Virus record (IMG/VR): IMGVR_UViG_3300025138_000110
Coordinates: 1-38,503 of that record
Source: a virus
Length of the DNA: 38,503 bases
Strand: one strand, 5' to 3'
The translations under genes and the position numbers were made by a program. The notes under the pieces were generated by a model that was not told the origin of the DNA, made no database searches, and saw only the letters and a list, made by a program, of their open reading frames with translations. Shown here piece after piece: positions 8,101-38,503 of this stretch. Each line of letters begins with the position of its first letter. Position 1 is the stretch's first letter.

Positions 8101-11100
8101 GGTGTTACACCGCTTGTTGATGCTAAACCTGTATCAGTATCACTTGGATACTCTATATAATATCTATAAACACTACTATTCTTATCAACATTTAATCTAA
8201 CAAATTCTCCCATTGTAGGATCAAAGTCAAATTCTAATACTCCACAATGCTTAACTCTACCTGAACTGCCATTTGTGAAATCTGTTAAACTGCCTACTGC
8301 GCCTGACCTTCTAGTTTGTCCATACGGGTTACCTGCCGGTCCTGCCTGATAAGAACTTGCATGGCCACTGGAACCTGTTCCGCCTGCTCTTGAGCCATAC
8401 GCATTATATCCACCTCTGCCAGGCGACGTTGTCCCAACTGCTGAACTAATTGCAGGTGCTAGTAATTCTTGCTTCTCTACGTTTGTTGCTTTTCTTATTG
8501 ATGTAAACGAAGCAGTAGTTGATAACAATCTACCACCTGTAGTTGTTTTTGTTGTTGTTTGATAAAAGTCAAATTTATCTGCCGCACTATACATATCAAA
8601 TACAACTTTAACTCTGCCTTTACATTTAAATCTGTAATGCCATGTATCGTTTACTTTCCATGTTGATGTGGACTGCTGATTCTTTTCTCTCTGTATAAAC
8701 GAACATGGTATTGGATTTGAAACTATTACGTTTGCATTACCTGGTACTGTAACATTAGCATTACCTCCACCGCCACCGGGTGGAACTGATACATTTGAAT
8801 TTGATGTTGGCGGAACTGGATCTACATAAACTGGAGGTAGGTCTGTTCCACAAGGTGTTTTAGCAGTATGTGTAACTAAAGCAGAAGGATTAATAACCAC
8901 TGCACCTGTATTAGTACCTGGTCCTTGTGCTACTGTTGATGTTGCTGGTGGAGGTGTAGTGCCTGTGCTTCCTGCAGGACCACTTCCTGTTGGTGTTAGC
9001 AAATTAGGTATCTTAACAAAAGTGTTAATGTTTGGACCTTGTGTTGCTGTAGCACCCATATTAATTAAGAAGTTTTCAGGTATAAAATGTTTTTGTCCGT
9101 TAAGATCTACTTCTCTTGCACCGCCTACCATGCCGCCAAATGTTGCTCCTGAGAACGTATTTTTAATTCCGTTTAAGAAGTAACCAGGGTGTATTGCAAC
9201 TTTACTACCTTTGGAAATACCTGTTTTCCAAGTGCTTGTTTGATTGTCTACCTTACGAGCACTATTATTATTTGTTGCATTTACTTGTTTTACAAATTGT
9301 GCTCTTGTTCTTACCCAATTTTGTTTGAGTCTATTTTTTCTAAAGTTTTGCTGTTTACCAAAATAGTTTCCTATGCCGGCAATATATGCTTTACCATATT
9401 GACCAAAGTCTACTAGTGCATTTGAACCTTTAAGAGCATCTGCATAGTTTACAATATTAAGTTCATTAGAACCAATATATGCTTTAGGGTTAGTAATAAT
9501 GTTTGGAATAACTGCTGATGGTATTCCACCAATCGCTGGTATAGTTATCGCAGGACTAAACTTATTAGGCGTTGTATTTTTCCAACCAGTTGTTAATGCT
9601 GTTCCAAGATTGTAATTAATTTTTCCTATAACTGGTGGCATTACATGACTGTGAATCTTACCAATTGGTTTATTAAGAGGCTTGAGGCCATGACCTATAC
9701 CTGGACGTGTTGGATTGATCATTAAGTTATGTTGTATATTTGTTAAGTACGGTAACTTACCAATAACTTGTTTTGGATTTATGTTGAGTCCTGGTATTGC
9801 TAAATTATTAAGCATTGGTATGGATAATGCAAAACTTCCTTCATGTACCATAAAGCCACGTTTAATTTCTTGTTGGAAATTAAAGTCTTGCACCATTGCA
9901 TCAATACTGTTTGTGTTATTAAACTTAATAGCATTATTGTTTAAGTGAACTACATCATGGTCTAATGTTGTAACAACTGGATTGTTATCTGCATTTTGAG
10001 ATATTGTTTGATGATCATATGGGAATACACCACTTGTTATAATAGTATTAGCATCTGGAATGCTTTTAACTTTATAAACAACATTATAATATCTAGGATC
10101 TATATTATGAACTGCAATTTTTTTACCTGCATATCCACTAGTGATACCATGTGCTGTTGACGTAATTTTTATTTCTGGTAATAAAACATTTCCTGTAGTA
10201 GTGGATGATGTTGCAATATGCTTTCTAGTAATTACAAAACTATTATGATTGACTGCTTCTGTTGTGTAGTATCCACTATATTCTTTTGCATTAAGTTTTA
10301 CTACTTCGTTAGAACCAATATCAATATTACTGCTACATGTTATTCTTGTTTTGCCAAAATAAGTATATGATAAACTTGCTGATGTATTTTCACTATCTGA
10401 AAGTGTAGTATTTGCCGCCATATCCTTGACTGCTTGTATACTTGTTCCGCTTTGATCTGTTTCTTTAATTTTAAATGATGTTGCTGTAAGATCACTAATA
10501 ATAAATGCATTTGCATGTAAGGCACAATTTGCATTACCTTCTGCATGTCCAAAGGAAACTGTTTCACCATTTTCTAATGTAAATGGAATAGTGTTAATTA
10601 AAATAACGTTAGCACCTGCTACTAGTGTTGTTATTGCTTCTGCTGTTGCAAATCCACTCGCCGCTGGTGTTATACTTGAAATTGGTAATAATGCTGTTGC
10701 GGTAGGGCCAATAGCACTAATTGTTTTTTCTACCATTACTGGCGGATACAAGTTTCTTAATCTAACTTGTTTGTTTTCTATTAATTCTTCGTTTGTCCAA
10801 ACAACAAATTTATCACTAAGTTCACCGTCTTTAATAATTAAATGGTAATCTAAATAGCGACCTGTGTCTGTACCTTGAATAAAGTTAGTGTCTATATAAT
10901 TAAATAAACTGTCTCCATTTTTATATAGGTATGTTGTAACATCTCCTTGCTCTTGTTCTACAAAACTAACTGTTGTATTTGCAACTTGCTTAACTTTGTA
11001 AACATTAAAGTCTCTGTTCTCTGCTATACCAACGTGTATAGTTTCATTCATATCAGGCTGGAAACGTTGTCCATCGTTAAATAAACCGCTGATGTCTGGA

Positions 11101-14100
11101 ACACTAAATGTTTGATAATCTACTGATCTTTCGTCTACATAACCTGCATTAGGTATGTCTAAATATTTAGAATCAGTAACACCAGTGAAATCAACTTTTC
11201 CTGTTGTTGGCCATAAGTTACTTTCTCTTACGCCAATTGGCTTTCTTAAGAATCTAGTTTGATCATCAATATCGATCAATATAGTTTCATCGCCTTTGAT
11301 ATCTGGAGTAATCTCGAATGTTTGAATGCTCTTAGTTCTAATTGCAATCTTATCTTTTGTAGTAGTTTTAATGCTAATCTTAGCACCTGCTATATCAGTT
11401 TTTACTGCATTTGTGAACTCAATAGTTCCTGACTCTACTAGTAAAATTATAGCACCGTTCTTAAGCGAACCTCCAGGTAATTCATTAACATTATGTATTG
11501 TTAATTGTGTTGTGGTAGATGTAAACTGTCGTTTAAAATTCGTATTAAGTAATTTACTTCCATCAACAAAAACATCTAAATGTGGATATGACACATCAAA
11601 CAATTCAATATTTTCTGATGCTAATGTTGTAGGTAATGCAATATTTACATCGCCTGTAAAAACTGTATCGGTACTTACTGTACCTGTAGAATCAGCAGGG
11701 TCAACTCTTTGTATATCTGCTGGTACTGTTGATGCACTAACAACAAAACTTATTTCGTTTCTTGAACCTGCATCATATGTATAATGCGTTGTAGGTGTTA
11801 ATGTTGTTGAATCTATTTTAGCAACTATATCATTAATTGTTGTTGCGCCTGTACCTAATGTTGCTTCGTTGCCTACTGTTGCTACACTATGTCTTTGTCT
11901 TGTTTCGTATACACCTTTAGTAATATTTAAGTTTGCCCAACTGCCGTCGCTATCACTTATTCTAAATTCTTTACCTGTTATTACAAGTTTGTATCTATTA
12001 ATAATACTACCACCGGATACTTCTTCACTCTTTACTGTGGTTGCTGTAACATTCGGTAAACTTGCATGAGCAGTAATTGTTGATGCAACTGCTACAATAT
12101 TTGATGCTGTTGAGAAGTTAAAACTAACTGTATTTGCAGGAGTTGTAAAGTTATCTGTAATAGTAACAGTTCCTAAAAGTCCTGTAACATTTGAACTGCT
12201 TAGTCTACTACCTTCTGCTGTTGGAGTTCTAAATTTTAATGTACTATCTGATAAAACAACATTACCTGCCACCACTGTAGCCGTCACAGGCTCCGTATAA
12301 CCTTTACCTTGATTAGTTATAGTAAATGTACTAAGTGACCCGTTACCTGCTAGTACGGCTGTTGCTGTTGCTTGTGAGCCGCCTTGTGCAAGTGTAATTG
12401 ATGTTGGTGTACTTATTTCTATAGTAGGTGCATTAAAATATTTGTGTTCTGGTGTTAATACATCAATCTTTTCTATAGCACCCGTTGTATCTTGCGGGAA
12501 TGCTAAAGTAATTAACTGTGGATTTTGTTTAACATCGACTTTATCTATTTTAAGTTCTATAGGCTGATCGTTTTCTAAATCTCCAAACTCACCTGTTTTA
12601 ATTGCCCATTCAGAGAATAAATTAATATTACCTTGAACAATGCTATTACTCTTAGCAAGTTTTACAATGCTGTTTGCTGTTCCTTTGCCTTGCAAGAAAC
12701 CAGTATAGAATTCAAATTGTGTATCGTCATCTATATCTAAATTATTTAAGTAGTCTCTTTCTTGATATCCAAATAACTTTCTGGAAGTATCATAAATTTG
12801 TTTCTCTACTGGTATGAATCCTAATTCATAGTATCTGCCCATTGTTTGAGCCATGTTATCTAAGTTAGGTTTTAATTCATCACCTTGTATAATATAACCT
12901 TCTGATAACAGTTTACCTTGCCAGTTTGCAGTTTTCTTACCTTTAACTTTTAATCTATTTTGTCTTTGTCCCATGACAGGATCAAAAATTGTATCATTAA
13001 ATTCTGTTTTGTTATCTAATATAAGTATGTGTTCCATTTGTTGTGTAAACAACATGCAACCATAAATTTGAGTACCTTCTGGTGCTTCAATTTGTATTTT
13101 ATTATCTGTTCTTAATATTGCACAATCTTGTGGAGTAATTGCTTTGCCAAACTGATCTAGCAATGCAAATTGATTTCTATCTACCCTGTTTATTTTTGAA
13201 ATAAACTCTTTGTCTTTTTCAAAAACAATTTTTGTAGCAAGTGGTGATAATTCTAAAACATTATTTGTTTCCCAGCCGCCTGCAACAAAAAATAAGAATT
13301 GCTTACATGCATATATCCAACCACGTTGTTCGTTTATACTTGAATCGTAATTGCTAAAATCAAAACCTTGATGTTCTTGATAATTTCCTAAGTCTATTAA
13401 AAATTGAAAAACTTCTTGATAAGTTGTAAATTCTGTGTTATAATTAACTCGTTTAACTTCGCCTGTGGTATCTAAATACCCTGTGGCTTTTATTCCACCT
13501 TCTTGTGGTAAACTAGCCAACGAGGACCATAGTGTAGACATAAATGATTCTGCACTTGGAACTAATGTAGGTGCTTGATAGAACCTATCTAAGTATTTTA
13601 CAATTACTCCTGTTGAGTAACTTATATTTGGTTGCCAGTCAGTAAAGTTAGCAGGAGTACCTGCAACTTCTTCTTGTATTGTTCTTTTAGTAAGATCAGG
13701 TGCTAATGTATCAAAGTAGCCAAAGTTTTTATCGTAGCCTTTTACTTTATATCCATCTGCTGTTTTTTCTATAATTACACCACTATAAAAGTTTCTGCTC
13801 TTATAAGGAGAATTATGTATTAGCAGATCTATATTTTCTGCTGGAATAATTAAACTGCCTGATGTTCCGGTAGGACTAAATTGGTCTGTTCTTAATATTA
13901 ATGTATCTTTATCTGTATAACCTGCAATCCTATGTCCTAATTTTATATTTAAAGTTTGAAGTTTTTTAACAAAGCCAGTTGAAATATCTAAGCCTTGGAA
14001 CTTTAACCAACTGTAAATAAATTGTGTATAACCTATATTTGTTTGCAAATCATCTGAATCTTCTGTACTAACACCATGAACTTTGAAATCTGTATTTGCT

Positions 14101-17100
14101 TTAAAGTCAAAGTGTTCTCTTGTATCTTTATCTACAAGTTTAAATGATTCTGCTTTTGGTACTACAACATCTAATGGCTCTGCAAACACACTAGCAAATT
14201 TTCCAGGCTTTTGTAAAAGCATTGCTTCTACAACTGCAAAAGGATAATCCTCAGAATATTTCCACGCATTTTCTACTGGTGCGCCGTCTCCTAGTTGCCA
14301 TGGGTTATTAATTAATGTTACATCTTTATCAACTGATTCAGTAAGTGTACTTGTTATTGCACTTGATGTTCCGGACGGTATAGTTACAGTTGCATTTGTA
14401 TTATTGGTAATATCTGTTGAACCTAAATAATATTTTCCTTTATAAGTTAAATCTGATCCTTCACTAACAACTCCACCTATAACAAATGGGAAGTTATCGT
14501 TTGCAACATAGTGCCAAATTTTTGTTGTAGGACTATCTACTGTATATGCATAACGTAAGTTGTATACATTTGTTACATGGCCATCGGTACCTGCTAATGC
14601 AGTATTGGCTTGGAAATCTTCTACAAAGTGTCCTGTATGTGCGCCACCTGGGCCTGATGCCCTTGTGCCTGTTTTAAGTTCAAAAATACTGCTTATTGCA
14701 ACAACGTTACTTGAAACATTACTTGCATCACTGTATCCATATGGTCCATAAATTGGTAAGCCATCAAATGCCCAACCTACTTTGGGTGAAGCCTCTGTTG
14801 TGCTCCAAGCACCTAAGCCGGCACTTGCTGGTGTAATTTGGTAAACTCCTTCTGTAAGAGTTTCGTTATTTTTTACTGCATTGTAATTCCAAGTACCCTC
14901 AGACTTCCAACTACCTTTAGCAGGATTTACAATTGGTACGCCTGTGACTGTGACACCAATAAAGTTACTTGGTATATTTTCAGTTGCTTTAGTTACTGTA
15001 TTGTAACTTGCAAGTACAGGTATAGAATAAGTGTTGTCTAGACTGCCACTTGTTATATAAGTGTTGTTGCTGTCGTAACTGCTTGTTAATTGGTCAGTAA
15101 GTACAATACTATTTGTAATTGCATTTGTATTTGATGTTCTAGCATTATTATATGTAGATACTAATGTTGACGAACCTGTTGCAACAATCTCTCCTGGTGA
15201 TTTTAATGTACCACTACTGTTAATTGGATAGTAATCACTTAATCCGGATCTTGCATAAGGATTATTTGTTTTATATCTGTCGTCTATTACATTTTCACTA
15301 TTGCCTAACCTAATAATACCTAACTCTAAATCACTCCACATAGCAGTATTGCTAAGGGCGTATGTTGTTCCGTATTGTGTTTCCCACCAAGTTGGCTTGT
15401 CATAGAACCCAAGCATTTCCCATGGATGAGTGTGAGGTCTTACTGTATCGTAATAATATTCGTACCAGCCTCTCCAATGCCCAGGAACATCAGTTGTTCC
15501 TTTGTAGTTCCATGTCCATTTATCTGTTTCATCATAAAATTCATTAACAACATGGTCTGCTTTATTACTGCCTGTCCAATTTGTGAAACTGTTACGCAAC
15601 GTGTCATTGTATTCGCTAACTTTGACATATGATCTAAATGCACCAGGTCTAATATTATGCACACTAAGTTTTGCATGTTGATCTGCATCACGTAATGATT
15701 TAAGTGCGGAATTATATAACCTAATTTCAAATTCTAATAATACGTTATCTCTTTTATCTCCGTTAAGGGTAGTTCTACTTCCGTCATGACCTATAAGTGT
15801 TTGGATTGGTGTTTGAAAACTATTATCAGTTTCTATCTTAGGATGGAATAAAGGATACAATCCCATTGTACTTGGTGTCGGTGGACACTCAGCACTATCT
15901 CTATCCTTGTCATAAAACTTTGCAATAATATTATCATTTAGTATAAAGTCAGCAAGTGTTGTTGCAGTAAATGTAATTTTAATTGGATTTGTATTTACAA
16001 TAGTATAATCTTCATCTACAAGTAATAAATTATTCTTAGTGCTACTTCTAGTATGATATATTAATAAACTGTTTTCTAATGTGTTTAAGTCTGCATAACT
16101 TGTTAATGTATATTCTGCTGTGGCAACATCATTTATAATAATAGTTTCTTTTGTAAAGTTATCGCCAAAAGGTAAAACATATGAAGTATCAAATACTCCT
16201 TTACCTACACTGAATGATTTTAAATTTCTTAAAACTGTTTCTAAAGCAGATTCTATAGACAGGCCTGCTTTGTTTAAATCAAAGTCGTTATTATACTTGT
16301 CAATTTCTTTAATTAAACGTTTCTTATATTTGGTATACTCTCTGCCTACAAATCTAAATGAATCTACTAAGTTGTGTGGCTGGTCATCTAATAAAAACGC
16401 ACCATGTATTAAATCATCGTTTGTTCTTACAATTAAATCTGCTTTTGAAATATCTTGTTCAATGTTATTAAAATTATTTTTACCTAATGCAGAGCCAGTA
16501 AAATCGTCTTGCATTTCTAAATACTTTTTAAAGTGCGGTAAGTATTCAGGTTCTGCAATATTAATAATAGAATCATTTAAAGGATTTGAATTCCAACTTA
16601 AAGGAATATCATATCTACTGTTGTTAATAAAGTTAATGCCATCAGTAGTATTTGCTTCTATCTCAACTATGTCTCCTTTCTTAAGACTAAATGTTGTAAA
16701 TTGTAATGCTCTATTATTATATGTGTATGCTGTTTGGATAGCATTGTTTACTCTTACAATTATGTCTCTACCACTAGGAGCACTTGTCTTTACAACAGGA
16801 ACACACCCTACATCATAAATTGTTCTTTTGTCGTCGACATCAGTTGTGCTAATTGTATGTTTTGTTTTTACATTCTGTCTTGAAGGAGCAGTAGCACTTT
16901 TAAAGTTACTACTATATTTGTTTGTTCCATTTTTAAAGTAATAATCACCTTTAATAACTGTTGCTGTTGAACTACCAAATGACGTATAAGTGTATTGATC
17001 GTTCTTTAAATAGTCTGTAAAAGTAATTTCACTTACAGTTTTATAATTGCTATAAGAAAGAGGAAAGCCTAATTCAGTATCGTTGGCTCCTGTTCCTGCT

Positions 17101-18374
17101 TTGTAACCAAATATTTTTCCACCTTTAAAACTTGCTTGAGGATATGTACCTGCATTATCTAATGCAACTTTGTTATCGTCATAAAGATTAAATAGTGGAT
17201 CTTGGTTTACTCTTGCTTTACGTTGAACTTCTTCAAGGTCTCCGTCTTTTAAAATTAATTCTTTACCAAATTGGTTAAAGCCTTTGTCTATATTATAAAC
17301 ATCATTTTCTGCTATAGTAACTGAACTTGTTAATGTAATAGCACTACCTACGCCTGCTACTGTCCAAATTTTAGTTCTATCTGTTGCACTTTCATTTGGA
17401 AATACTATAGTATCTCCGTTAACAAGTTCTCTAGTATCTACTGTTACGGTTGGTTGTCCTATAATAGCATTCTTATTAAAACTTGTACTTGATACTGTTA
17501 CTGTACCTTTATATGTTCCGCCATGATTAAAAAGTTCTAAGTCTTTGCTAAATTCTAATATTGGTCTTTTTGCTCTATATTTTTTAGCAGGTAAACTATC
17601 GCCTGCATCTAAGAAGTTGTCTTCATGGAACCAATGATTTACTCTACTCCATGCTGTTCCTGAATCTGCACCATGCTCTATTAGAATATAATCTTTTTTA
17701 GTTAATTTAGAACCGCCATATGCTGTTGCTATACTTTGCTCGTAATCAACTAGTCTTATAGATGTGCCTACGCCTTGTACTATATATTTTCTATCTATTA
17801 CAACTGCATCTCCTGGAATAACATTTACTCCAGTAAACTTAACAATCATTCCGCTTCTAAATGCTTTGCCACCTGTAGGTGTATATGTTTTCTTACCTAT
17901 GATATCTTTATCAATTGCAATAGCAGTTGAAATACCTGTAGGCTGAATTGTGATTTCTGTTGGTCCTGTTATACTCCAAAAGTATTCTTGGTAGTTTAAA
18001 AACTTATCAATATTGATAGGTGGTAAAAATGTTTGGTATTCACTTGCAAATAAATGGTTGTGATCTCTAACTGGTGCACCATAGTTCTTTAATGTGTCAA
18101 CAAACTCATCATAAAATATAACACTATCACTATTACCTGACACTATGTCAAGTGTGTTTATTACTGGACTTAATGCATACTGTTGTCTGTCTGCATTGTA
18201 CTCACTAATAAAAGATCCTGCTAAACCAGACTCTTCTCCGGTTTGGTTGCCTATATATCCTGCAAGTGGTATAGTATTTGCTTTACTGAATAACTGCTCG
18301 ACTGTGCCTTCAAAGAAGTTCTTTAAAGCAGGCGTCTGCAGAAGTGCTGGTAAAGTTTCTATAATTTTGGCCAT
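2121..18374 (-). CDS. Giant virion structural protein (5417 aa), baseplate-associated
   Basis: One uninterrupted 16.25-kb frame, starting 3 bases after gp6. The N-terminal 300 residues and blocks near 1690-1980, 2350-2550, 4400 (GQVWWDTSTVRYKWYEQG) and 4650-4850 (EYWNTFFFDMLKYAYGEQ) resemble the very large virion proteins that follow gp6 in marine T4-like phages, sometimes annotated VrlC or gp7-like. T4 gp7, the wedge protein expected here, has about 1030 residues. A YHYH-like module lies at about 1195-1300. Beta-rich modules with the pattern I..v...G.GY..p.v recur near residues 2020, 3890 and 3930. Residues about 2900-3950 are Gly/Pro/Asn/Ser-rich with scattered Cys, suggesting extended or knotted fibrous structure. 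No signal peptide or clear membrane segment is seen. It probably forms a peripheral wedge or fibre-like part of the baseplate. The ribosome site is weak, so translation may be coupled to gp6. Family assignment is from memory of similar proteins; exact fold unknown. Confidence 0.75.
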   Translation of the reverse strand: MAKIIETLPALLQTPALKNFFEGTVEQLFSKANTIPLAGYIGNQTGEESGLAGSFISEYNADRQQYALSPVINTLDIVSGNSDSVIFYDEFVDTLKNYGAPVRDHNHLFASEYQTFLPPINIDKFLNYQEYFWSITGPTEITIQPTGISTAIAIDKDIIGKKTYTPTGGKAFRSGMIVKFTGVNVIPGDAVVIDRKYIVQGVGTSIRLVDYEQSIATAYGGSKLTKKDYILIEHGADSGTAWSRVNHWFHEDNFLDAGDSLPAKKYRAKRPILEFSKDLELFNHGGTYKGTVTVSSTSFNKNAIIGQPTVTVDTRELVNGDTIVFPNESATDRTKIWTVAGVGSAITLTSSVTIAENDVYNIDKGFNQFGKELILKDGDLEEVQRKARVNQDPLFNLYDDNKVALDNAGTYPQASFKGGKIFGYKAGTGANDTELGFPLSYSNYKTVSEITFTDYLKNDQYTYTSFGSSTATVIKGDYYFKNGTNKYSSNFKSATAPSRQNVKTKHTISTTDVDDKRTIYDVGCVPVVKTSAPSGRDIIVRVNNAIQTAYTYNNRALQFTTFSLKKGDIVEIEANTTDGINFINNSRYDIPLSWNSNPLNDSIINIAEPEYLPHFKKYLEMQDDFTGSALGKNNFNNIEQDISKADLIVRTNDDLIHGAFLLDDQPHNLVDSFRFVGREYTKYKKRLIKEIDKYNNDFDLNKAGLSIESALETVLRNLKSFSVGKGVFDTSYVLPFGDNFTKETIIINDVATAEYTLTSYADLNTLENSLLIYHTRSSTKNNLLLVDEDYTIVNTNPIKITFTATTLADFILNDNIIAKFYDKDRDSAECPPTPSTMGLYPLFHPKIETDNSFQTPIQTLIGHDGSRTTLNGDKRDNVLLEFEIRLYNSALKSLRDADQHAKLSVHNIRPGAFRSYVKVSEYNDTLRNSFTNWTGSNKADHVVNEFYDETDKWTWNYKGTTDVPGHWRGWYEYYYDTVRPHTHPWEMLGFYDKPTWWETQYGTTYALSNTAMWSDLELGIIRLGNSENVIDDRYKTNNPYARSGLSDYYPINSSGTLKSPGEIVATGSSTLVSTYNNARTSNTNAITNSIVLTDQLTSSYDSNNTYITSGSLDNTYSIPVLASYNTVTKATENIPSNFIGVTVTGVPIVNPAKGSWKSEGTWNYNAVKNNETLTEGVYQITPASAGLGAWSTTEASPKVGWAFDGLPIYGPYGYSDASNVSSNVVAISSIFELKTGTRASGPGGAHTGHFVEDFQANTALAGTDGHVTNVYNLRYAYTVDSPTTKIWHYVANDNFPFVIGGVVSEGSDLTYKGKYYLGSTDITNNTNATVTIPSGTSSAITSTLTESVDKDVTLINNPWQLGDGAPVENAWKYSEDYPFAVVEAMLLQKPGKFASVFAEPLDVVVPKAESFKLVDKDTREHFDFKANTDFKVHGVSTEDSDDLQTNIGYTQFIYSWLKFQGLDISTGFVKKLQTLNIKLGHRIAGYTDKDTLILRTDQFSPTGTSGSLIIPAENIDLLIHNSPYKSRNFYSGVIIEKTADGYKVKGYDKNFGYFDTLAPDLTKRTIQEEVAGTPANFTDWQPNISYSTGVIVKYLDRFYQAPTLVPSAESFMSTLWSSLASLPQEGGIKATGYLDTTGEVKRVNYNTEFTTYQEVFQFLIDLGNYQEHQGFDFSNYDSSINEQRGWIYACKQFLFFVAGGWETNNVLELSPLATKIVFEKDKEFISKINRVDRNQFALLDQFGKAITPQDCAILRTDNKIQIEAPEGTQIYGCMLFTQQMEHILILDNKTEFNDTIFDPVMGQRQNRLKVKGKKTANWQGKLLSEGYIIQGDELKPNLDNMAQTMGRYYELGFIPVEKQIYDTSRKLFGYQERDYLNNLDIDDDTQFEFYTGFLQGKGTANSIVKLAKSNSIVQGNINLFSEWAIKTGEFGDLENDQPIELKIDKVDVKQNPQLITLAFPQDTTGAIEKIDVLTPEHKYFNAPTIEISTPTSITLAQGGSQATATAVLAGNGSLSTFTITNQGKGYTEPVTATVVAGNVVLSDSTLKFRTPTAEGSRLSSSNVTGLLGTVTITDNFTTPANTVSFNFSTASNIVAVASTITAHASLPNVTATTVKSEEVSGGSIINRYKLVITGKEFRISDSDGSWANLNITKGVYETRQRHSVATVGNEATLGTGATTINDIVAKIDSTTLTPTTHYTYDAGSRNEISFVVSASTVPADIQRVDPADSTGTVSTDTVFTGDVNIALPTTLASENIELFDVSYPHLDVFVDGSKLLNTNFKRQFTSTTTQLTIHNVNELPGGSLKNGAIILLVESGTIEFTNAVKTDIAGAKISIKTTTKDKIAIRTKSIQTFEITPDIKGDETILIDIDDQTRFLRKPIGVRESNLWPTTGKVDFTGVTDSKYLDIPNAGYVDERSVDYQTFSVPDISGLFNDGQRFQPDMNETIHVGIAENRDFNVYKVKQVANTTVSFVEQEQGDVTTYLYKNGDSLFNYIDTNFIQGTDTGRYLDYHLIIKDGELSDKFVVWTNEELIENKQVRLRNLYPPVMVEKTISAIGPTATALLPISSITPAASGFATAEAITTLVAGANVILINTIPFTLENGETVSFGHAEGNANCALHANAFIISDLTATSFKIKETDQSGTSIQAVKDMAANTTLSDSENTSASLSYTYFGKTRITCSSNIDIGSNEVVKLNAKEYSGYYTTEAVNHNSFVITRKHIATSSTTTGNVLLPEIKITSTAHGITSGYAGKKIAVHNIDPRYYNVVYKVKSIPDANTIITSGVFPYDHQTISQNADNNPVVTTLDHDVVHLNNNAIKFNNTNSIDAMVQDFNFQQEIKRGFMVHEGSFALSIPMLNNLAIPGLNINPKQVIGKLPYLTNIQHNLMINPTRPGIGHGLKPLNKPIGKIHSHVMPPVIGKINYNLGTALTTGWKNTTPNKFSPAITIPAIGGIPSAVIPNIITNPKAYIGSNELNIVNYADALKGSNALVDFGQYGKAYIAGIGNYFGKQQNFRKNRLKQNWVRTRAQFVKQVNATNNNSARKVDNQTSTWKTGISKGSKVAIHPGYFLNGIKNTFSGATFGGMVGGAREVDLNGQKHFIPENFLINMGATATQGPNINTFVKIPNLLTPTGSGPAGSTGTTPPPATSTVAQGPGTNTGAVVINPSALVTHTAKTPCGTDLPPVYVDPVPPTSNSNVSVPPGGGGGNANVTVPGNANVIVSNPIPCSFIQREKNQQSTSTWKVNDTWHYRFKCKGRVKVVFDMYSAADKFDFYQTTTKTTTGGRLLSTTASFTSIRKATNVEKQELLAPAISSAVGTTSPGRGGYNAYGSRAGGTGSSGHASSYQAGPAGNPYGQTRRSGAVGSLTDFTNGSSGRVKHCGVLEFDFDPTMGEFVRLNVDKNSSVYRYYIEYPSDTDTGLASTSGVTPGGANLPANNGQTNYGSGNPGTPGGKGYQSPFVQPAGAPVTKVTHGGGISKSHIWNKYAFQHNFGGFGNPSGSGFNYLPSVYRKKVKQTWQPSTPDNTPLGADKYVNTSFQRISGGIIIPLSAPVPAPIEIAPRPIRGRSYDFYSSMQGNLDLLWNPSTQRFTSKFDINKLDSMSGIGSGNVVSLVQYPGLPGYIPGTGFADGVDQMAPPVEVDGRAFNSDDADFNNNPVLKLIPKKRIGGQLRASKPIYMPLSYPTPQCCLPTSDLGNLTPGDELIINGTRITIPGGGVDATMNAILCQAGNGYKASKSAKDKQPAVRITSCTNAPLTFRDGCRGGAYKEVLDFHIVRSFASGETRTNDAIIVPPTGGVSATTYNANGIPTGSSVSSVTANYTRYLEDGSNASFTQSSTSTTGATFFNVSKQQTSGGDGYAVGDRLRAVGGTPVPSPHGGITEVCIGIQGLGYSSAANVKIYIGDGTTPGSGATVSGVNLNQDGQITSVNLSNRGSGYSMENPPKVRVIDLDPTSTATPATCTAKIGSGKGFPERVAKFEVISVVASNSLLHLNEGRPVGEIISVRVIDRGVYKIFPSDLTNGIPLEYDNINFGDEDDGTGTGSGLGQYDPLRKNAKLDSPGGYDPIRGEFGGGTGARVFLTSREIPDCSERGDAKRSLGLPDMITDTDIPFSLANDMNQGLIGSGYDPKDLSITYSPGSGGGGYGGGDGNGGIGFIGIESPIYDGIELDEVTPGMLQNLGLPAGEYNNDLLCMYMTDETSITESNPVKGTGSDYVDAEGYKLQTGEIDEEISIVCVDTLTADFNSMFGNATVTFTDDLYQYELRSAQNGGPVRLNRGISQSSRVAVLESLRYNKETDIANAAVEFAGISTTSKNDFANVWIDDVGGKWSYYENGTLINAQTNLVDSKFVKNALLYDDDTGTKEMDYHLWDPFKGVIPAFIEAEIEYVGENDPVAYNIARSSFGKDNVGQVWWDTSTVRYKWYEQGSNRQRWLDWGKAMPGSGITLYEWCESQQLPIEYTGTGTPRNGSHYITDVKYDSYSGDFKTYYYYWIQNKEEITGYAGIQNNRKFTTVELARYLSDPIGQGLHTLSFVSNTSVVAGNLGSSLREEDDILQINISRNLNPLGLKHNSWKLLREGDNNSTVPGDISNKLIDSLCEVNALSEEVPNSKLSEAEKYGTKFRPRQTLFKYPAEARRVMREVLNEILANEKIKSLSPNWATSMPTRTYVIDTNWYAVDRIDNSNNKKIRYTSQEKAIMNVQSEKELESLKQSGLPDGAVVMVRGSATDRFQLWKWNAKNVKFTKIAIENETVRIKKEIYTDTNNETLQVELRAFLVLLRDTIFAGTEYWNTFFFDMLKYAYGEQKQLDWAFKTSYLYVEKEEEDLNTRIDFSPDNFSPVLDYMEEAKGYTAKIREYKDGKKTPIEYITGQMINDFDKPPYPDPVVGKVRILDPGNANDQTIMSTDTDYMNWYNNYALSNTIVRSGKVKLVFDRVDWRLLGTNSNIALHSYSKLIADNIVLLNITSNATVQSTANFTSSARIFKYDQEVRTQFVKDINTYFGAGASSNVSYTQDATNMFAAVNSGALVKTLGLVKTKVGGGFRGTELDANVFTKTSGSSFGKDMYETAFGWDSAGFDDINNIGGAFDSSIEVNNYIGTFTGNVTYRKNNETVEGFDGVTFQRVLYGEERPEELVLLSPLENLVFDITTSPYAYDANNQIVSAITVGPYTTANFTRSNTTTLTINNEVGINLLNNGETVAITNSGSDTKIVGNFTVANASSTSFTITIPGLTATNLTTAANVTFQKGPNSTEVEYIVHHDMFGGEEYLRVLRDGSKATTTTEKFNIFDDEIHVADASKLPKPAPGKVGVAWVDGTERVEYRLIVGNTIKSLTRGTRGTTIQTHIQGVAVVSGAKTEVFDDPGTAGFGDRDPRSQVWLKEDGTTQGLTDITNRSTTVTIGAFLQGDSSSAVGFDVRGFDADPWDGV
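14465..14790 (-). other. YHYH-like module inside the giant protein
   Basis: Residues about 1195-1300 of the giant protein read GWAFDGLPIYGPYGY, then a Gly/His-rich stretch (GPGGAHTGHF), then WHYVANDNFPFVIGG. The order GWAFDG.PIYGPYG ... [Y/W]HY.....FP[Y/F].IG is that of YHYH-domain proteins, in which the second block is usually YHYH followed by a PY.IGC-like end. Here the motif is WHYV and the terminal Cys is absent, so any metal or ligand site may be altered. Confidence 0.5.
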
Positions 18375-32239: not shown

Positions 32240-34008
32240 TGTTAAAGATTAAAAACGTATCAGCAAAAAACTTTATGAGTGTTGGGAACAACACACAGGC
32301 AGTTAATTTTGATAATTGCCAATTAACCCTTGTACTAGGACACAACTTAGACATGGGTGGTGACGGCAGTAGGAATGGCACAGGTAAGACTACTATTATT
32401 AATGCACTAAGTTATGCATTGTACGGAGAAGCACTTACTAACATTCGTCGCGACAATTTAATTAATAAGACAAACGGTAAAGGAATGATTACTACCGTTG
32501 AGTTTGAGATAGAAGGCAAGGCTTATCGTATAGAAAGAGGAAGGCGTCCTAATGTTTTAAGACTTTTTATAGATGGTACTGATGCTTTAGATAACGAACA
32601 GCAAGGCGACAGTCGAGAAACACAAAAAGAAATAGAAAAGATAATTGGCTTTCCGCATAATATGTTTAAGCATTTAATTGCATTAAACACATACACCGAG
32701 CCTTTTCTCAGTATGAAAAACAATGATCAACGAGACATGATTGAGCAGTTGTTAGGTATTACCGAGTTGTCCTCAAAAGCAGAAGTGTTAAAGTTAAGAC
32801 AAAAGGATACTAGAGATAGTATTAAAGAAGAAGAACTGCGAATACAAGCAGTACAAAATGCTAATGAAAACATAGAAAAAAGCATTAAAGAAATTGAAAG
32901 CAGAAGCAAAGCCTGGACAGCAAATAAAAATAACAAGTTACAAGAACTAGGCAATGCAATTATAAAATTAGAAACAATCGACATTAACGAAGAAGTTAAA
33001 AATCACAGCATTGTAGATGACATTAGTAAAAAAATGACTGACATTGATTCACTTAATGCTGAGGAAAAAAGATTACACAGCAGTATAAAAAGAAGTTCAA
33101 CAAAACTATCAGAACTAGAAAGTAATTTAGAAAGTGCTAAAGCAGGCGTTTGCCCAGCATGTGAACAACCTACTGCACACTTGGATACGCATGAGGCTTA
33201 TACACAAGAACTAGTAGAAAAAATTGATACTGAAGCAGAGTATCTTAAAGATTTAAATGCCCAACTTTTAAATGCACAGACGACAATAACAGAGTTAGGT
33301 GATATTCCTAACTTGCCGCAAACAGAATATTCTAAACTTGCTGATGCTTTACAGCACAAACATAATTTAGAAACAATGACTGAACAGTTAGGTGAGAAAG
33401 CAGGAGAGGACAATCCTTACACAGATCAAATAACAGGTTTAAGAGAATCAGGCATTCAAGAAATAAGTTTTGAAACTATGAACGAACTAACTTATTTGCA
33501 AGAACATCAAGAGTTTTTATATAAACTATTAACAAGTAAAGATAGTTTTATCCGTAAAAAGATAATAGATCAAAACATATCATACCTTAACCATAGGTTA
33601 GCATACTACTTAGAGAAGTTAGGCTTGCCACATGATGTAAAATTTGCAAGTGATTTAGGTGTAGAAATAACAGAGTATGGTCGTGACTTAGACTTTGATA
33701 ATCTAAGTAGAGGCGAACGTAACAGACTTATTTTAGGACTATCGTGGGCATTCAGAGACATGTACGAAAGTCTTAACAGGCCAATGAACTTAATGTGTAT
33801 TGATGAACTTATTGATAGTGGTATGGACTCTATGGGTGTAGAGAATGCATTAGGCGTTCTTAAAAAGATGCATAGAGAACAAGGTAAAAACATTATGCTC
33901 ATTTCTCACAAAGAAGAACTGGTCGGTCGTGTAAATAATGTATTGACAGTCGTTAAAGAAGGCGGCTTTACATTGTACAACACCGACACAGAGTATATTG
34001 ATGCCTAG
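32239..34008 (+). CDS. gp46: Recombination ATPase subunit gp46 (SbcC/Rad50-like)
   Basis: The 589-residue protein is the ATP-driven partner of gp47. Walker A is at residues 43-52 (GSRNGTGKTT, Lys50). Two long coiled-coil arms flank a zinc hook at CPAC (Cys305 and Cys308), which dimerises the arms. The ABC signature LSRGERNR starts at Leu489, Walker B is LMCIDE (Asp522, Glu523), and the switch His557 lies in ISHKEE. All ATPase motifs are intact, and length is close to T4 gp46 (560). It overlaps gp47 by 1 base and the following GIY-YIG gene by 8 bases. Confidence 0.95.
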   Translation: MLKIKNVSAKNFMSVGNNTQAVNFDNCQLTLVLGHNLDMGGDGSRNGTGKTTIINALSYALYGEALTNIRRDNLINKTNGKGMITTVEFEIEGKAYRIERGRRPNVLRLFIDGTDALDNEQQGDSRETQKEIEKIIGFPHNMFKHLIALNTYTEPFLSMKNNDQRDMIEQLLGITELSSKAEVLKLRQKDTRDSIKEEELRIQAVQNANENIEKSIKEIESRSKAWTANKNNKLQELGNAIIKLETIDINEEVKNHSIVDDISKKMTDIDSLNAEEKRLHSSIKRSSTKLSELESNLESAKAGVCPACEQPTAHLDTHEAYTQELVEKIDTEAEYLKDLNAQLLNAQTTITELGDIPNLPQTEYSKLADALQHKHNLETMTEQLGEKAGEDNPYTDQITGLRESGIQEISFETMNELTYLQEHQEFLYKLLTSKDSFIRKKIIDQNISYLNHRLAYYLEKLGLPHDVKFASDLGVEITEYGRDLDFDNLSRGERNRLILGLSWAFRDMYESLNRPMNLMCIDELIDSGMDSMGVENALGVLKKMHREQGKNIMLISHKEELVGRVNNVLTVVKEGGFTLYNTDTEYIDA

Positions 34009-34429
34009 TCCATGGAAATTTAATAATAAAACAGTAGACACGTTACCAGAAGATTGCGAAGCATTTGTATATCTAATTACAAATAAAGACAATGGCAAGA
34101 TGTATGTTGGTAAGAAACTTGCTAAATTCAAAACAACCAAGCCTCCCTTAAAAGGAAAAAAGAACAAACGTCGTGGTACTAAAGAAAGCGACTGGAAAAC
34201 CTATTGGGGTAGTTCAGATCATCTTAATGCAGATGTAGAATTACTAGGCGAAGACACCTTTACCAGAGAAATTTTACATTTTTGCCCTACCAGAGGCATA
34301 GCAAGTTACCTAGAAGCAAGGGAACAATTCGAAAGAAAAGTCTTGCTATCAGACGATTATTATAACGGAATCATCAATGTTAGAGTGGGTGGTTCACAAA
34401 TACTCAAAGAGCACTTCAAGAAGATATAA
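34001..34429 (+). CDS. GIY-YIG endonuclease, Seg-like
   Basis: The 142-residue protein has the GIY-YIG nuclease pattern near its N-terminus: YLITNKDNGKMYVGKK (residues about 24-39), where YLI and YVG replace GIY and YIG, followed by a basic stretch (KGKKNKRRGTKESDWKTYWGSSDHL) and a Glu-containing helix (EAREQFERKVLLSDDYYNGIINVRVGG). This combination occurs in small stand-alone proteins of marine T4-like phages related to Seg homing endonucleases, which cut DNA and can spread their own gene; whether this one is mobile or has been recruited to DNA processing is unknown. The ATG at 34001 lies inside the end of gp46; a TTG three bases earlier is less likely. It is the last gene of the gp55-gp47-gp46 operon. 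Confidence 0.75.
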   Translation: MPSPWKFNNKTVDTLPEDCEAFVYLITNKDNGKMYVGKKLAKFKTTKPPLKGKKNKRRGTKESDWKTYWGSSDHLNADVELLGEDTFTREILHFCPTRGIASYLEAREQFERKVLLSDDYYNGIINVRVGGSQILKEHFKKI

Positions 34430-34439
34430 CTATATATTG

Positions 34440-34830
34440 ATTAAGGCACATCAGACGTAAAGTCAAAGCAAGGCACACACAGGACTATACACCGGCCCCA
34501 ACAGAGGCATTGAATATCTGGCTCCTCGACAATCCGGCAATGGAAACACCCGGTGCGAGAATTGGAGATGTATAGCGGCAAAGATACAAACACACGACAA
34601 ACAGTATTAAAAGAATGTAGGCAATGAGAAAAAGCAACCTACAAGTTTGTGTAACCAAACTCTACCAGGTTACATAAATTTCCGTGAGACACGAGACGGT
34701 AGTGTATGGGGACAGAAGGCTCACTGGTTCCTAATAGCACCCGAGTTAGAGATGGTAATGGTTCACTTGATGAGACCTTTCATTGTTCTCCTTGCTTAAG
34801 GAGAATTATGGCTCAAGTTACTTGATAAGT
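34440..34830. ncRNA. Candidate structured noncoding RNA (strand not certain)
   Basis: No long frame is open here. The left part is clearly richer in G+C than its surroundings: 59 of 110 bases at 34471-34580 by hand count, against about 30% in a sample line of gp46. Several pairings are visible: CTATACA (34485-34491) with TGTATAG (34569-34575), enclosing CCGG (34492-34495) with CCGG (34550-34553); TGTAGG (34616-34621) with CCTACA (34638-34643); TGTAACC (34650-34656) with GGTTACA (34668-34674); CGTG/CACG (34683-34693); and a perfect 8-base stem at 34786-34805. I found no tRNA or tmRNA ends. This could be a phage structured RNA, a processed leader or a decayed gene. Pairings are symmetric, so the strand cannot be fixed; plus is slightly favoured as a continuation of the gp46 operon. 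Confidence 0.35.
34786..34805 (+). other. Perfect hairpin hiding a Shine-Dalgarno-like sequence
   Basis: TTCTCCTT (34786-34793), loop GCTT, AAGGAGAA (34798-34805). The right arm is a strong ribosome site followed 4 bases later by ATG, but that frame ends after five codons (MAQVT). There is no T-run, so it is not an obvious intrinsic terminator. Confidence 0.5.
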
Positions 34831-35097
34831 AAAACAAAAGAAAAACTTTCAAACAAAAGAATATGTGAATGAAATGAACATATGAATGTAGTTTGGAAAG
34901 ACACGAAGTGTCTATTAAAGTGCTTAACTATTGCAATTGAACTAATATAAACTGTTTAACATTATATTGCATTGTTCTATAATAGTATAGAGTTGTTGCT
35001 TATGTGTTAGGTATATTAAATGATGATATCAAATACTCTAGACTGTGTTTTGACCTAGTGAACTTCTTATTAAAACGTTGTCTTAGACTCGTAAAAG
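34831..35097. other. AT-rich intergenic stretch between convergent genes
   Basis: Only minor signals are visible: a hairpin AGACAC-GAA-GTGTCT (34899-34913), a short palindrome CTATA-ATAG-TATAG near 34977-34990, and an unsupported 22-codon frame at 34882-34950 with no good ribosome site. No convincing promoter or terminator is seen. Confidence 0.5.
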
Positions 35098-36248
35098 TTA
35101 TATAGCATCAAAGCCATGATCACCTTCAACAGTATTACTGCTGAAATCACCACCACCTTTATCGCCGGACTTTAACTTATTGAATTTGTTTAGGGTTTTG
35201 ACTATTAGTGAACGATCTAGATATCCCATACCCCATGCATCGTTCCATGATATAGAACCCTCAGAGAATATTACTAGTTCTGCAATAGATTCTTCTAGGG
35301 CCGTGGATTCGTCTTTTAGCCTCCTTAGGTAACCTGATATATCTTCAGGTTCGGCCTGTGCTAGGAAGCCGTGAAAAAATTTACAGGATCAAAGTTTACC
35401 TTTGTTGTGAATGAGTAATAGTCTTCTGCATTCTCTATTCCTATATTTTCAGTGCATTCTGGATTTGGACATTGCAACGCCATTTCTTGTGCAATACCAA
35501 TTGTGTTAATCTCTGTGATCTTTTCTTCGATTGCTTTACCGACACTACTGTCTACATTATTTAAAAATTCGGCAATTTGTATTTTGTCGTCTACTACAAA
35601 CTCCCCATCTTCGTTTGTGCCTGAAATATTATTAATACTATCTAAGATTAAATCAAAGTTTAATTCAGCAACCTTAACAAAGTTTTCATTGAACAGTTTA
35701 AGTCTTGCATCATCATCTTCAATTTCACCTAAGTTCTGTAAACTTCTAGTGCTTTGAAAGTTTGTTATACCTGCTTTGATTGTGCTGGAATAACTAAATG
35801 GTTTAACTAAAATTACTAAACCTGAATGTGCTACTTCGTATTCTTCTTCTAAAACTTGCATAGTTTCAAGTGCTCTTTCAACACTTGCAATACCTCTTGC
35901 TTCGCTAGAACACTTATCACATGTTCCAGTAACTTCTAAGTCATCTCCAAATGTAGCACCTTGAATTGCTACTAATAATGTATCTATATCTGCACTTAGC
36001 ATTTTACTTGCATCTTTTACATTGGGAACACAACTTTTAATTACTTGAACAACTGCTTCACCATTAAGTAATGCATCTGGGTTCTTCATTAAAAGTTCGT
36101 CTTTTGCCGTCATGGCAAAAATTGGTAGTTCGCCATTCTCAGGCATTTCTACAACCTCTGCAGAGTAGTATTGTCCTAAACTTGGTAGTTTAGCATATAG
36201 TTTTGGCGCTCTATAAAAAGAGGTCAACGGATTGTGTTGTTGTGCCAT
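35098..36248 (-). CDS. gp26-like tail assembly protein, -1 frameshift fusion (383 aa)
   Basis: Reading the gp26-like gene to the slippery run AAATTTTTTC (35382-35373) and slipping back one base joins its first 292 residues to a further 91, ending at TAA 35098-35100. The extension begins HGFLAQAEPEDISGYLRRL and contains ISWNDAWGMGYLDRSLI. It cannot start on its own: its frame has a TGA at 35389-35391 just before the slip site and no ATG, GTG or TTG until an ATG at extension residue 49. The codon content is clearly coding. A short protein plus a C-terminally extended -1 product, next to the tape measure gene, is the arrangement of tail tape-measure chaperones (lambda G/GT, P2 E/E+E'). I infer the same role: the short form coats and the long form links tape measure to tube protein. 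T4 gp51 is a possible counterpart of the extension; I cannot verify this. Confidence 0.75.
35331..35351 (-). promoter_or_regulatory. Hairpin downstream of the slippery site
   Basis: On the minus strand AACCTGA (35351-35345) pairs perfectly with TCAGGTT (35337-35331) around a 7-base loop. It begins 21 bases after the slip site, somewhat farther than the usual 5-9 bases for a stimulatory structure, so its role is uncertain; it may be part of a larger fold. Confidence 0.4.
35361..36248 (-). CDS. gp26: gp26-like tail/baseplate assembly protein, unshifted product (295 aa)
   Basis: The zero-frame product starts at ATG 36246-36248 with AAGGAG 7 bases upstream and ends at TAG 35361-35363 after NFFTAS. 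Features match the T4 base plate protein family (gp26) of marine phages: FYRAPKLYAKLPSLGQYY (residues 11-28), AMTAKDELLMKNPDALLNGEAV (45-66), CVPNVKDASKML and IDTLLVAIQGATFGD. Two cysteine pairs, Cys110/Cys113 (CDKC) and Cys260/Cys265 (CPNPEC), could bind one zinc ion. T4 gp26 has 208 residues and is required for hub assembly. The gene is divergent from the tape measure gene, separated by 115 bases that hold two late promoter octamers. This form is one of two expected products; see the frameshift entry. Confidence 0.85.
   Translation of the reverse strand: MAQQHNPLTSFYRAPKLYAKLPSLGQYYSAEVVEMPENGELPIFAMTAKDELLMKNPDALLNGEAVVQVIKSCVPNVKDASKMLSADIDTLLVAIQGATFGDDLEVTGTCDKCSSEARGIASVERALETMQVLEEEYEVAHSGLVILVKPFSYSSTIKAGITNFQSTRSLQNLGEIEDDDARLKLFNENFVKVAELNFDLILDSINNISGTNEDGEFVVDDKIQIAEFLNNVDSSVGKAIEEKITEINTIGIAQEMALQCPNPECTENIGIENAEDYYSFTTKVNFDPVNFFTAS
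35373..35382 (-). promoter_or_regulatory. -1 ribosomal frameshift slippery site
   Basis: Minus strand AAATTTTTTC, read in the zero frame as (GT)A AAT TTT TTC. It contains two overlapping X XXY YYZ heptamers: A AAT TTT (35382-35376) and T TTT TTC (35379-35373). Both allow full re-pairing one base back and lie 9-12 bases before the zero-frame stop. Confidence 0.75.
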
Positions 36249-36363: not shown

Positions 36364-38503
36364 ATGGCACGAGTAAACGTAACCAATGCAGACGGCGTAG
36401 ATTTCCAGGTAGACCTACCAGAATTTGCTATGGACTCCACTGCCGGAGATATTGTTAGCATTCTCAAAAATATATATGACAGTTCGCCAACTAAAAAAGA
36501 CCAAGAAAAAAGTAATGCAGAAAAAGAAGCGGCCGCCAAGAAAGCAGTAGAAACTGCTAAAAATGTAGGTGAAGGAAATAAAGAAGCACTTAAAGAATTA
36601 GGCGATGCATTTAACAACTTCAAAAAGCAACAAGACAGTGAACCTGATGCAAAAGCACAAGAAGAATATAATAGAAAAGTTGCAAGAACAAATACATTTT
36701 TAGAAAAATCGGCTGATAGGTTGGCTGGATTTGGATTTGGTCTTGTTTCAATAACCAGTCTTATAGCAGTTGGTCTTTTTAATGCTGTAACAAATGCAGG
36801 TGAATCACTTAACGAACTTACTAAAGCAGGTGTAGGTTTTGGCGATGCACAAGGCTCGACTATTGATGCCCTAACAGAATTAAGCATGGTAGGTATTGAT
36901 GCTACACAATTTTTAACAGACTTTAGTAGAGCGGCAGGAGTTTTAGGTGTTAATAGTATTGCTTCTATGTCACGTGAGTTTGATACTTTAAATGCATCAG
37001 GCATAAACTTAGGTATGACTCTAGAAGAAAGTGCAGAGCGATATGGTGAAGAATTAGATCAAAGAGCACGATTAGGTATAGTAAATGGTATTCAATCCAT
37101 GCAGATAATAAAAGAAACTCAGCAAACAATGAGGACACAACAAAAGTATGCTCAGGCATTAGGTATAAGCACTGGTGAACTTAGAACGTTCACAGACGGT
37201 CTTATAACTGGTACTAATATATTATCAGGTTCGTTGTTACGATTCAATGCAAGTACACAGTCTGCAATATTTGCCGGTGTTAAAGAATTTGGTACAATAA
37301 TGGCAGGCTTGGGTGGCGAAGGTGGTAAAGATATTGCAACTGCAATGACAGAAGCCGCGGCCGGGGGTGCATTAGGCTTTAGCAGTAGTTTAGTGGCCAT
37401 GACCGCAGTATTGCCAAGACTACAAAAAACAACTGTAGCATTATCTACAGCAATGCAAAACGGAACACTTACGCAAGAGCAGTCGCAAAAAATGGCAAGT
37501 GAGTTTGCACAAGAATTAGGTAACCTAAGTCAAGGTGAAAGAGAAAGAATATTTGCTATGGAAAGAGCAGGTGTAGAAGGTGCAACTGAAATGGCTAATG
37601 CAGTCAGAAACTTTACAGCAAGTGCTAAACGTATTGAAGACTTAAAATTAGATCCTTCAGCAGTACAAAAAGGCACTAATGCATTAAGCAATGTGATTAG
37701 TAAAGTAATGGGCATGTTTGAAGCATTGAGATATTCATTCTTAGAAGGAGTTGGCTCAGTAGGTGATTTAGGTAAAGCATTTGAAGAAGCACAAAAAATT
37801 ATATTTGAGTCCCTAGGGATATCATTTGACAAAGCAGGTGACGGACTTAAAGCATTTGGTAAACAAATAGGTGAGAAATTACCTAAGTATATAGAAAAAG
37901 CCGCAGAACTGTTTGCTAGTTTGATAAAAACACTACCTACAATAATAGACGGGTTTATCACAGTATCTAAAGGCGTAATTAGTTTCTTTAGTTTCATGGC
38001 CAATAACATTTATCTACTTGGTGGATTAGCGGCGGCTATACTTGCAACTACACTTGCAGTAAAAGCCTTTGGTGCTATTAAGATGTTTGGAGGTTTTGCT
38101 GGAGGCTTAGGCAGTAAGGGTCCAGGAGCAGGTGCAGGTGCCCAAAAACAAATTATGGACGGAGCAGGTAGTTCCGGAAAAGCCGCAGGTGGCATGAAAG
38201 CATTTGGCGGCGGTTTTGCAATGATGATGAAAGGCATTGTTACAGGACTTAAAATATTAGGTAAAGCGGCCATGAACCCAATGGTATGGGCAGGCTTAGG
38301 ATTGATCACTGTGGCTGTTATTGCATTGGCAACAGCATTGAGAATTGCGGCACCGGCTATAGAAGCAATGGGTAAAGTAATACTAAATGTAATGCAAGGC
38401 GTAGGAGCAGTAATAGAGTCAGTAGGAAAAGGCATAGCGGCGATTGTAACAGCAATAGGCTCAGTGGTTTTAAAAATCTTTGAAGGAATAGGTGCAGTAG
38501 TAG
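36364..38503 (+). CDS. Tail tape measure protein, 3' end cut by window edge
   Basis: The frame is open from ATG 36364-36366 to the window end (713 codons). A weak ribosome site (AAGAGA) lies about 8 bases upstream. The product has the tape measure pattern: a charged, helical N-terminus with an Ala/Lys/Glu-rich stretch (residues about 45-100, coiled coil), then long Ala/Gly/Leu/Ile-rich helices with hydrophobic segments at about 120-142 (LAGFGFGLVSITSLIAVGLF), 550-574 (LLGGLAAAILATTLAVKAF) and 640-659 (MVWAGLGLITVAVIALATAL). Such proteins set tail length, fill the tube and may enter the host membrane. T4 gp29 has 590 residues; this one exceeds 713. It is divergent from its likely chaperone gene, whereas lambda-type phages have the two in tandem. 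Confidence 0.85.
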   Translation, partial: MARVNVTNADGVDFQVDLPEFAMDSTAGDIVSILKNIYDSSPTKKDQEKSNAEKEAAAKKAVETAKNVGEGNKEALKELGDAFNNFKKQQDSEPDAKAQEEYNRKVARTNTFLEKSADRLAGFGFGLVSITSLIAVGLFNAVTNAGESLNELTKAGVGFGDAQGSTIDALTELSMVGIDATQFLTDFSRAAGVLGVNSIASMSREFDTLNASGINLGMTLEESAERYGEELDQRARLGIVNGIQSMQIIKETQQTMRTQQKYAQALGISTGELRTFTDGLITGTNILSGSLLRFNASTQSAIFAGVKEFGTIMAGLGGEGGKDIATAMTEAAAGGALGFSSSLVAMTAVLPRLQKTTVALSTAMQNGTLTQEQSQKMASEFAQELGNLSQGERERIFAMERAGVEGATEMANAVRNFTASAKRIEDLKLDPSAVQKGTNALSNVISKVMGMFEALRYSFLEGVGSVGDLGKAFEEAQKIIFESLGISFDKAGDGLKAFGKQIGEKLPKYIEKAAELFASLIKTLPTIIDGFITVSKGVISFFSFMANNIYLLGGLAAAILATTLAVKAFGAIKMFGGFAGGLGSKGPGAGAGAQKQIMDGAGSSGKAAGGMKAFGGGFAMMMKGIVTGLKILGKAAMNPMVWAGLGLITVAVIALATALRIAAPAIEAMGKVILNVMQGVGAVIESVGKGIAAIVTAIGSVVLKIFEGIGAVV

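Follow-up and report, generated by a model that had tools for sequence, protein, structure and literature searches.

The gp26-like gene on the minus strand of the window (the whole stretch of viral DNA that was analysed, 38,503 nt) raises the question of whether its translation always ends at the TAG codon or continues, in a minority of ribosomes, into the -1 frame to give a longer fusion protein. The sequence-only reading had proposed a programmed -1 frameshift here, by analogy with the tail chaperones (TACs) of other phages, and both the frameshift and the analogy are supported by the homology of the gene and by the conservation of slip site and extension among its relatives. The features concerned are listed in Table 1.

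Table 1. Features of the gp26-like locus, in positions of the window.
Feature	Position	Strand	Details
gp26-like gene, short form (TAC-N), 295 aa	35361..36248	-	PF12322 E 1.5e-15; PHROG_150 'baseplate hub' E 3.8e-18
Slippery heptamer 1, A_AAT_TTT	35376..35382	-	In X_XXY_YYZ phase, 12 nt 5' of TAG
Slippery heptamer 2, T_TTT_TTC	35373..35379	-	In X_XXY_YYZ phase, 9 nt 5' of TAG
Short-form stop TAG	35361..35363	-	
-1 frame extension, FF + 91 codons + stop (putative TAC-C domain, gp51-like)	35098..35379	-	
Predicted fusion gp26-extension, 383 aa (TAC-NC)	35098..36248	-	Translation across slip
Candidate stimulatory stem region	35318..35370	-	GCUUCCU pairing with AGGAGGC, and the bases between; starts about 3 nt after the heptamer
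Tape-measure-like divergent ORF, runs off window end	36364..38503	+	PHROG_1272 tape measure E 0.004, weak

The gene scores 57.9 bits against the PF12322 (T4_baseplate) profile, for which the curated cut-off is 24.5, and it is a divergent, previously unannotated member of the TAC group. It ends with the codons GTA AAT TTT TTC ACG GCT TCC TAG. There are two overlapping in-phase heptamers in this run, A_AAT_TTT and T_TTT_TTC, at the two distances from the stop that had been claimed for them, and a tandem -1 slip at either one would give the identical peptide, VNFF-HGFLA. The description of the -1 frame was also correct: it stays open for 91 codons up to a stop at 35100-35098, the preceding -1 stop is a TGA (35391-35389), and in the extension neither GTG nor TTG occurs ahead of the first ATG, which is codon 49 (35229). 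The extension on its own gave no match in Pfam or PHROG. The short form and the extension were modelled separately, and a structure search with the modelled extension against viral models gave no convincing match.

The surroundings of the locus were searched as well. No Rfam family, tRNA or tmRNA was found in the window. The roughly 670 bp between the extension and the nearest gene on that side (34430-35097) hold no convincing ORF or match to Rfam, tRNA or tmRNA models. That neighbouring gene, at 33998-34429 on the plus strand, encodes a SegE-type GIY-YIG endonuclease (PF19835 E 4e-34); its best PHROG is labelled 'NAD synthetase', which is probably a mislabel. The baseplate region of the 38.5-kb contig contains a single ORF of 5417 aa (2121-18374, minus strand).

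Conservation of the arrangement was assessed in metagenomic and cultured relatives. Two alignments were used for pattern scans of IMG/VR and found 542 and at least 592 relatives; the 80 loci kept from each reduced to 55 distinct sequences from the window's clade (the window included) and 77 of cyanophage type. None of the 132 lacks the in-phase heptamer or the homologous -1 extension that follows it; the heptamer is T_TTT_TTC in 124, A_AAT_TTT only in seven and T_TTT_TTT in one. A tblastn search with the gp26-like gene matched 64 phage records, for the most part jumbo phages. Of these we examined 16 cultured jumbo phages (Phosso, PA5oct, XaC1, BF, PBECO4, Munch, XbC2, Atu_ph07, Kaldavass, CBB, GAP32, RaK2, Vibrio 2.275.O, Hallingskeid, SCTP-2 and RAS14), and in each there is an in-phase heptamer at the same FF codons and then a homologous -1 extension. 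The heptamer is T_TTT_TTC throughout except in RAS14 (T_TTT_TTT), and the zero-frame stop drifts, so that the heptamer starts 10 to 40 nt upstream of it. At 60% protein identity the 132 sequences and the 16 jumbo phages form about 33 clusters. The same arrangement is also present in S-PM2, P-SSM2 and KVP40, with T_TTT_TTC, and in HTVC008M, with T_TTT_TTT immediately 5' of TAA. In two loci, L027 (HTVC008M) and L172, the zero-frame stop codon abuts the T_TTT_TTT heptamer.

Loss of the slippery run with the extension retained had been named as evidence that would count against a frameshift. Seven relatives (L061, L069, L084, L094, L099, L102 and L106) do lack T_TTT_TTC: they read AAT TTT TCC, and the zero-frame Phe has become Ser through a TTC to TCC change. 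All seven nevertheless keep A_AAT_TTT, and the product predicted for a -1 fusion is unchanged. Judged from their codons, these relatives represent a natural swap between the two overlapping slip sites.

The extension can be related to the genes of T4 itself. S-PM2, P-SSM2, HTVC008M and KVP40 each have a single PF12322 gene, overlapped in the -1 frame by a match to PHROG_634, which is labelled 'baseplate hub assembly catalyst'. T4 has two PF12322 genes on opposite strands, 26 (208 aa) and 51 (249 aa), and neither has a heptamer at the corresponding place. The sequence-only reading had guessed at a link between the extension and T4 gp51, and profile alignment with hhalign bears this out: the cyanophage fusion aligns with T4-type gp51 over nearly its full length (99.0%, E 4e-18), and the window extension, which matches the jumbo-phage extensions at 99.2%, matches T4-type gp51 C-termini at a modest 77% probability that exceeds 100 of 100 shuffles. 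The cyanophage-type extension belongs to the 'gp51' family. The alignment of gp51 with gp26 is also at 99.0%, and by the same evidence the two T4 proteins are paralogues, with gp51 as the in-frame long form. Since gp51 aligns both with the cyanophage fusion and with gp26, T4 has its long form encoded in frame by a gene of its own, and this natural fusion of the two parts is evidence that the fusion is functional.

We then considered selection on the two frames. In the window clade the Val codon of the slip site is GTA in 55/55 sequences and the Asn codon is always AAT; the same-codon fraction is 1.00 for GTA, AAT, TTT and TTC, against a mean of 0.51 (SD 0.16) across 281 columns. For the two Phe codons of the cyanophage group the fractions are 1.00 and 0.97, against a gene mean of 0.53. 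Synonymous constraint on the slip codons is complete. In the window clade the extension has an overall pN/pS of 0.49, or 0.53 with the overlap left out; in the cyanophage group the value with the overlap left out is 0.31. Purifying selection acts on the extension. Taken together, the comparison makes a programmed -1 frameshift in the gp26-like gene close to certain, and the arrangement and its conservation predict that the fusion protein is actually made.

The alternative that survives best, although we consider it very improbable, is that ribosomes re-initiate, in a coupled manner, close to the gp26 stop and translate the extension as a small gene of its own that is never fused to gp26. The database annotation of many phages does have a separate gene there ('gp51' or hypothetical), there are TAATG overlaps in BF, PBECO4 and XbC2, and in 32 of the 77 cyanophage-type loci the fourth codon past the slip is ATG. 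However, ATG, GTG and TTG are absent from the first 12 extension codons in 55/55 members of the window clade, most of which have no ATG before codon 49, and it is at the slip itself that the conserved residues of the extension (FFHGFLA, FFR..LL) start. The frozen synonymous choice in the slip codons and the in-frame fusion in T4 gp51 also argue for a frameshift over re-initiation.

A stimulatory RNA structure downstream of the heptamer was assessed by a register scan with pair counts; RNAalifold returned no structure on gapless alignments. In the cyanophage group a predicted hairpin of 9 bp opens 7 nt after the heptamer, and it covaries: there are 20 two-sided cells where 8.4 are expected, a number reached in 0 of 500 shuffles. 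In the window clade 79% of cells are paired in a conserved register (52 distinct sequences). Covariation there is weak, and the possible stem in the window's own clade is therefore suggestive only.

These data bear on a second alternative, slippage of the polymerase on the T6 run, which would insert one U into the transcript. The resulting protein would be the same and the poly-T runs are conserved, but six consecutive T, or five in the seven relatives with TCC, make a short run for a polymerase to slip on. Moreover, conservation tracks the X_XXY_YYZ phase, the A of the Val codon included, and in the relatives there is a covarying hairpin at a spacing suited to ribosomes. We consider this explanation slightly less probable still than re-initiation. 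The 6-nt homopolymer at the point of the frame change might also suggest a sequencing or assembly error in one continuous gene, but the frame changes at the same codon in cultured genomes of independent origin and in a further 131 metagenomic loci, and this recurrence refutes an error. Finally, chance origin of the heptamer and extension was ruled out by a control scan of ORF ends in the fetched loci: about 318 non-gp26 ORFs of at least 150 aa gave no case of a T6N heptamer in phase together with at least 60 codons of -1 extension, and among the matches listed by the scan 13/13 were gp26 homologues of other phages.

We therefore favour programmed ribosomal frameshifting, and give a probability of about 0.93 to the reading that the gene is the TAC of a T4-related, jumbo-phage-like and probably marine myovirus, with a short form and a minor frameshifted long form. 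In the proposed mechanism the majority of ribosomes would terminate at TAG and release the short form, which is gp26-like. A minority would re-pair after a tandem -1 slip on AAATTTTTTC, at A_AAT_TTT or at T_TTT_TTC, and would continue into the extension, so that the long form would carry a helical, gp51-like C-terminal domain. We infer both the slippage itself and its efficiency. By analogy with lambda G/GT, both forms may act as chaperones of the tape-measure and hub proteins and bring in the tube protein.

Neither the fold nor the tape-measure neighbour adds much support. Structure searches of the PDB with the AlphaFold2 model of the short form gave no convincing match to a solved TAC; the HK97 TAC (2ob9) was found with a middling Z of 5.8 over 89/107 residues, at rank 49 among generic helical matches. 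A sequence search of the PDB returned matches to haemoglobin alone, which were dismissed as chance. The gp26-like gene had been placed beside the tape measure gene; there is an ORF adjoining it, but this is transcribed divergently and its identification as a tape measure is weak. BLASTP of this ORF against the corresponding ORFs of RaK2 and Phosso showed no similarity.

The locus resembles lambda G/GT in that a putative -1 slip, located towards the 3' end of the chaperone gene, would give a minor long form. In contrast with lambda, the protein family is different as far as can be judged from sequence, the heptamer is different, and so is the layout: the tape-measure candidate of the window is divergent and weakly identified, whereas the tape-measure gene of lambda lies downstream. 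Neither product of lambda G/GT is found in the virion (PMC5009743). In T4, gp26 and gp51 are listed as hub assembly chaperones, and gp51 is not in the particle and is described as 'of unknown function' (PMC3004832).

The TAC of Vandenendeviridae and Andersonviridae, as in phage Adele (PMC12846349), likewise has a conserved -1 frameshift at a poly-T site and is usually annotated as two genes. Those phages are of another lineage, however, and the motif is GTTTTT.

The nearest precedent is among the T4-like phages themselves. Work by Vladimirov, Gautam & Davidson (Virology 2022, 566:9-15, doi 10.1016/j.virol.2021.11.003) reportedly found conserved frameshifting in several groups of T4-like phages, with genes 26 and 51 serving in the T4 group. 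The identification of T4-like TAC genes in 2022 is credited to these authors in passages of PMC10885494 and PMC12846349, so that the arrangement, which the sequence-only reading did not know as a standard annotation for T4-like gp26, is not without precedent in T4-like phages. The same passages state that TAC-N genes of T4-like phages are known to contain poly-T slip sites (PMC12846349) and that some T4-like phages carry instead a short gene and a separate long fusion gene (PMC10885494). The window's gene resembles the T4-like TACs as described there in its predicted short and long forms and in the poly-T run for a -1 slip close to its 3' end; set beside them, it has a double heptamer, of which certain relatives keep A_AAT_TTT alone. 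The T4-like TAC frameshift was published in 2022, and therefore the gene is not new in kind and the surprise is limited. Rather more tentatively, and at somewhat below even odds, the frameshift may date back to the ancestor of the entire T4 and jumbo-phage superfamily, which would take in groups for which it is unreported. On this reading the double slip site of the window clade would be redundant, since one heptamer can disappear and the fusion protein stay the same, and the downstream stems would be specific to lineages.

In summary, the comparison strongly supports a frameshifted tail chaperone in jumbo phages and in abundant marine phages, at loci where the databases give a 'baseplate hub' gene and an unrelated small gene, or nothing. 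T4 gp51, long described as essential but without a known function, would thereby gain a testable role, that of the long partner in a pair of chaperones.
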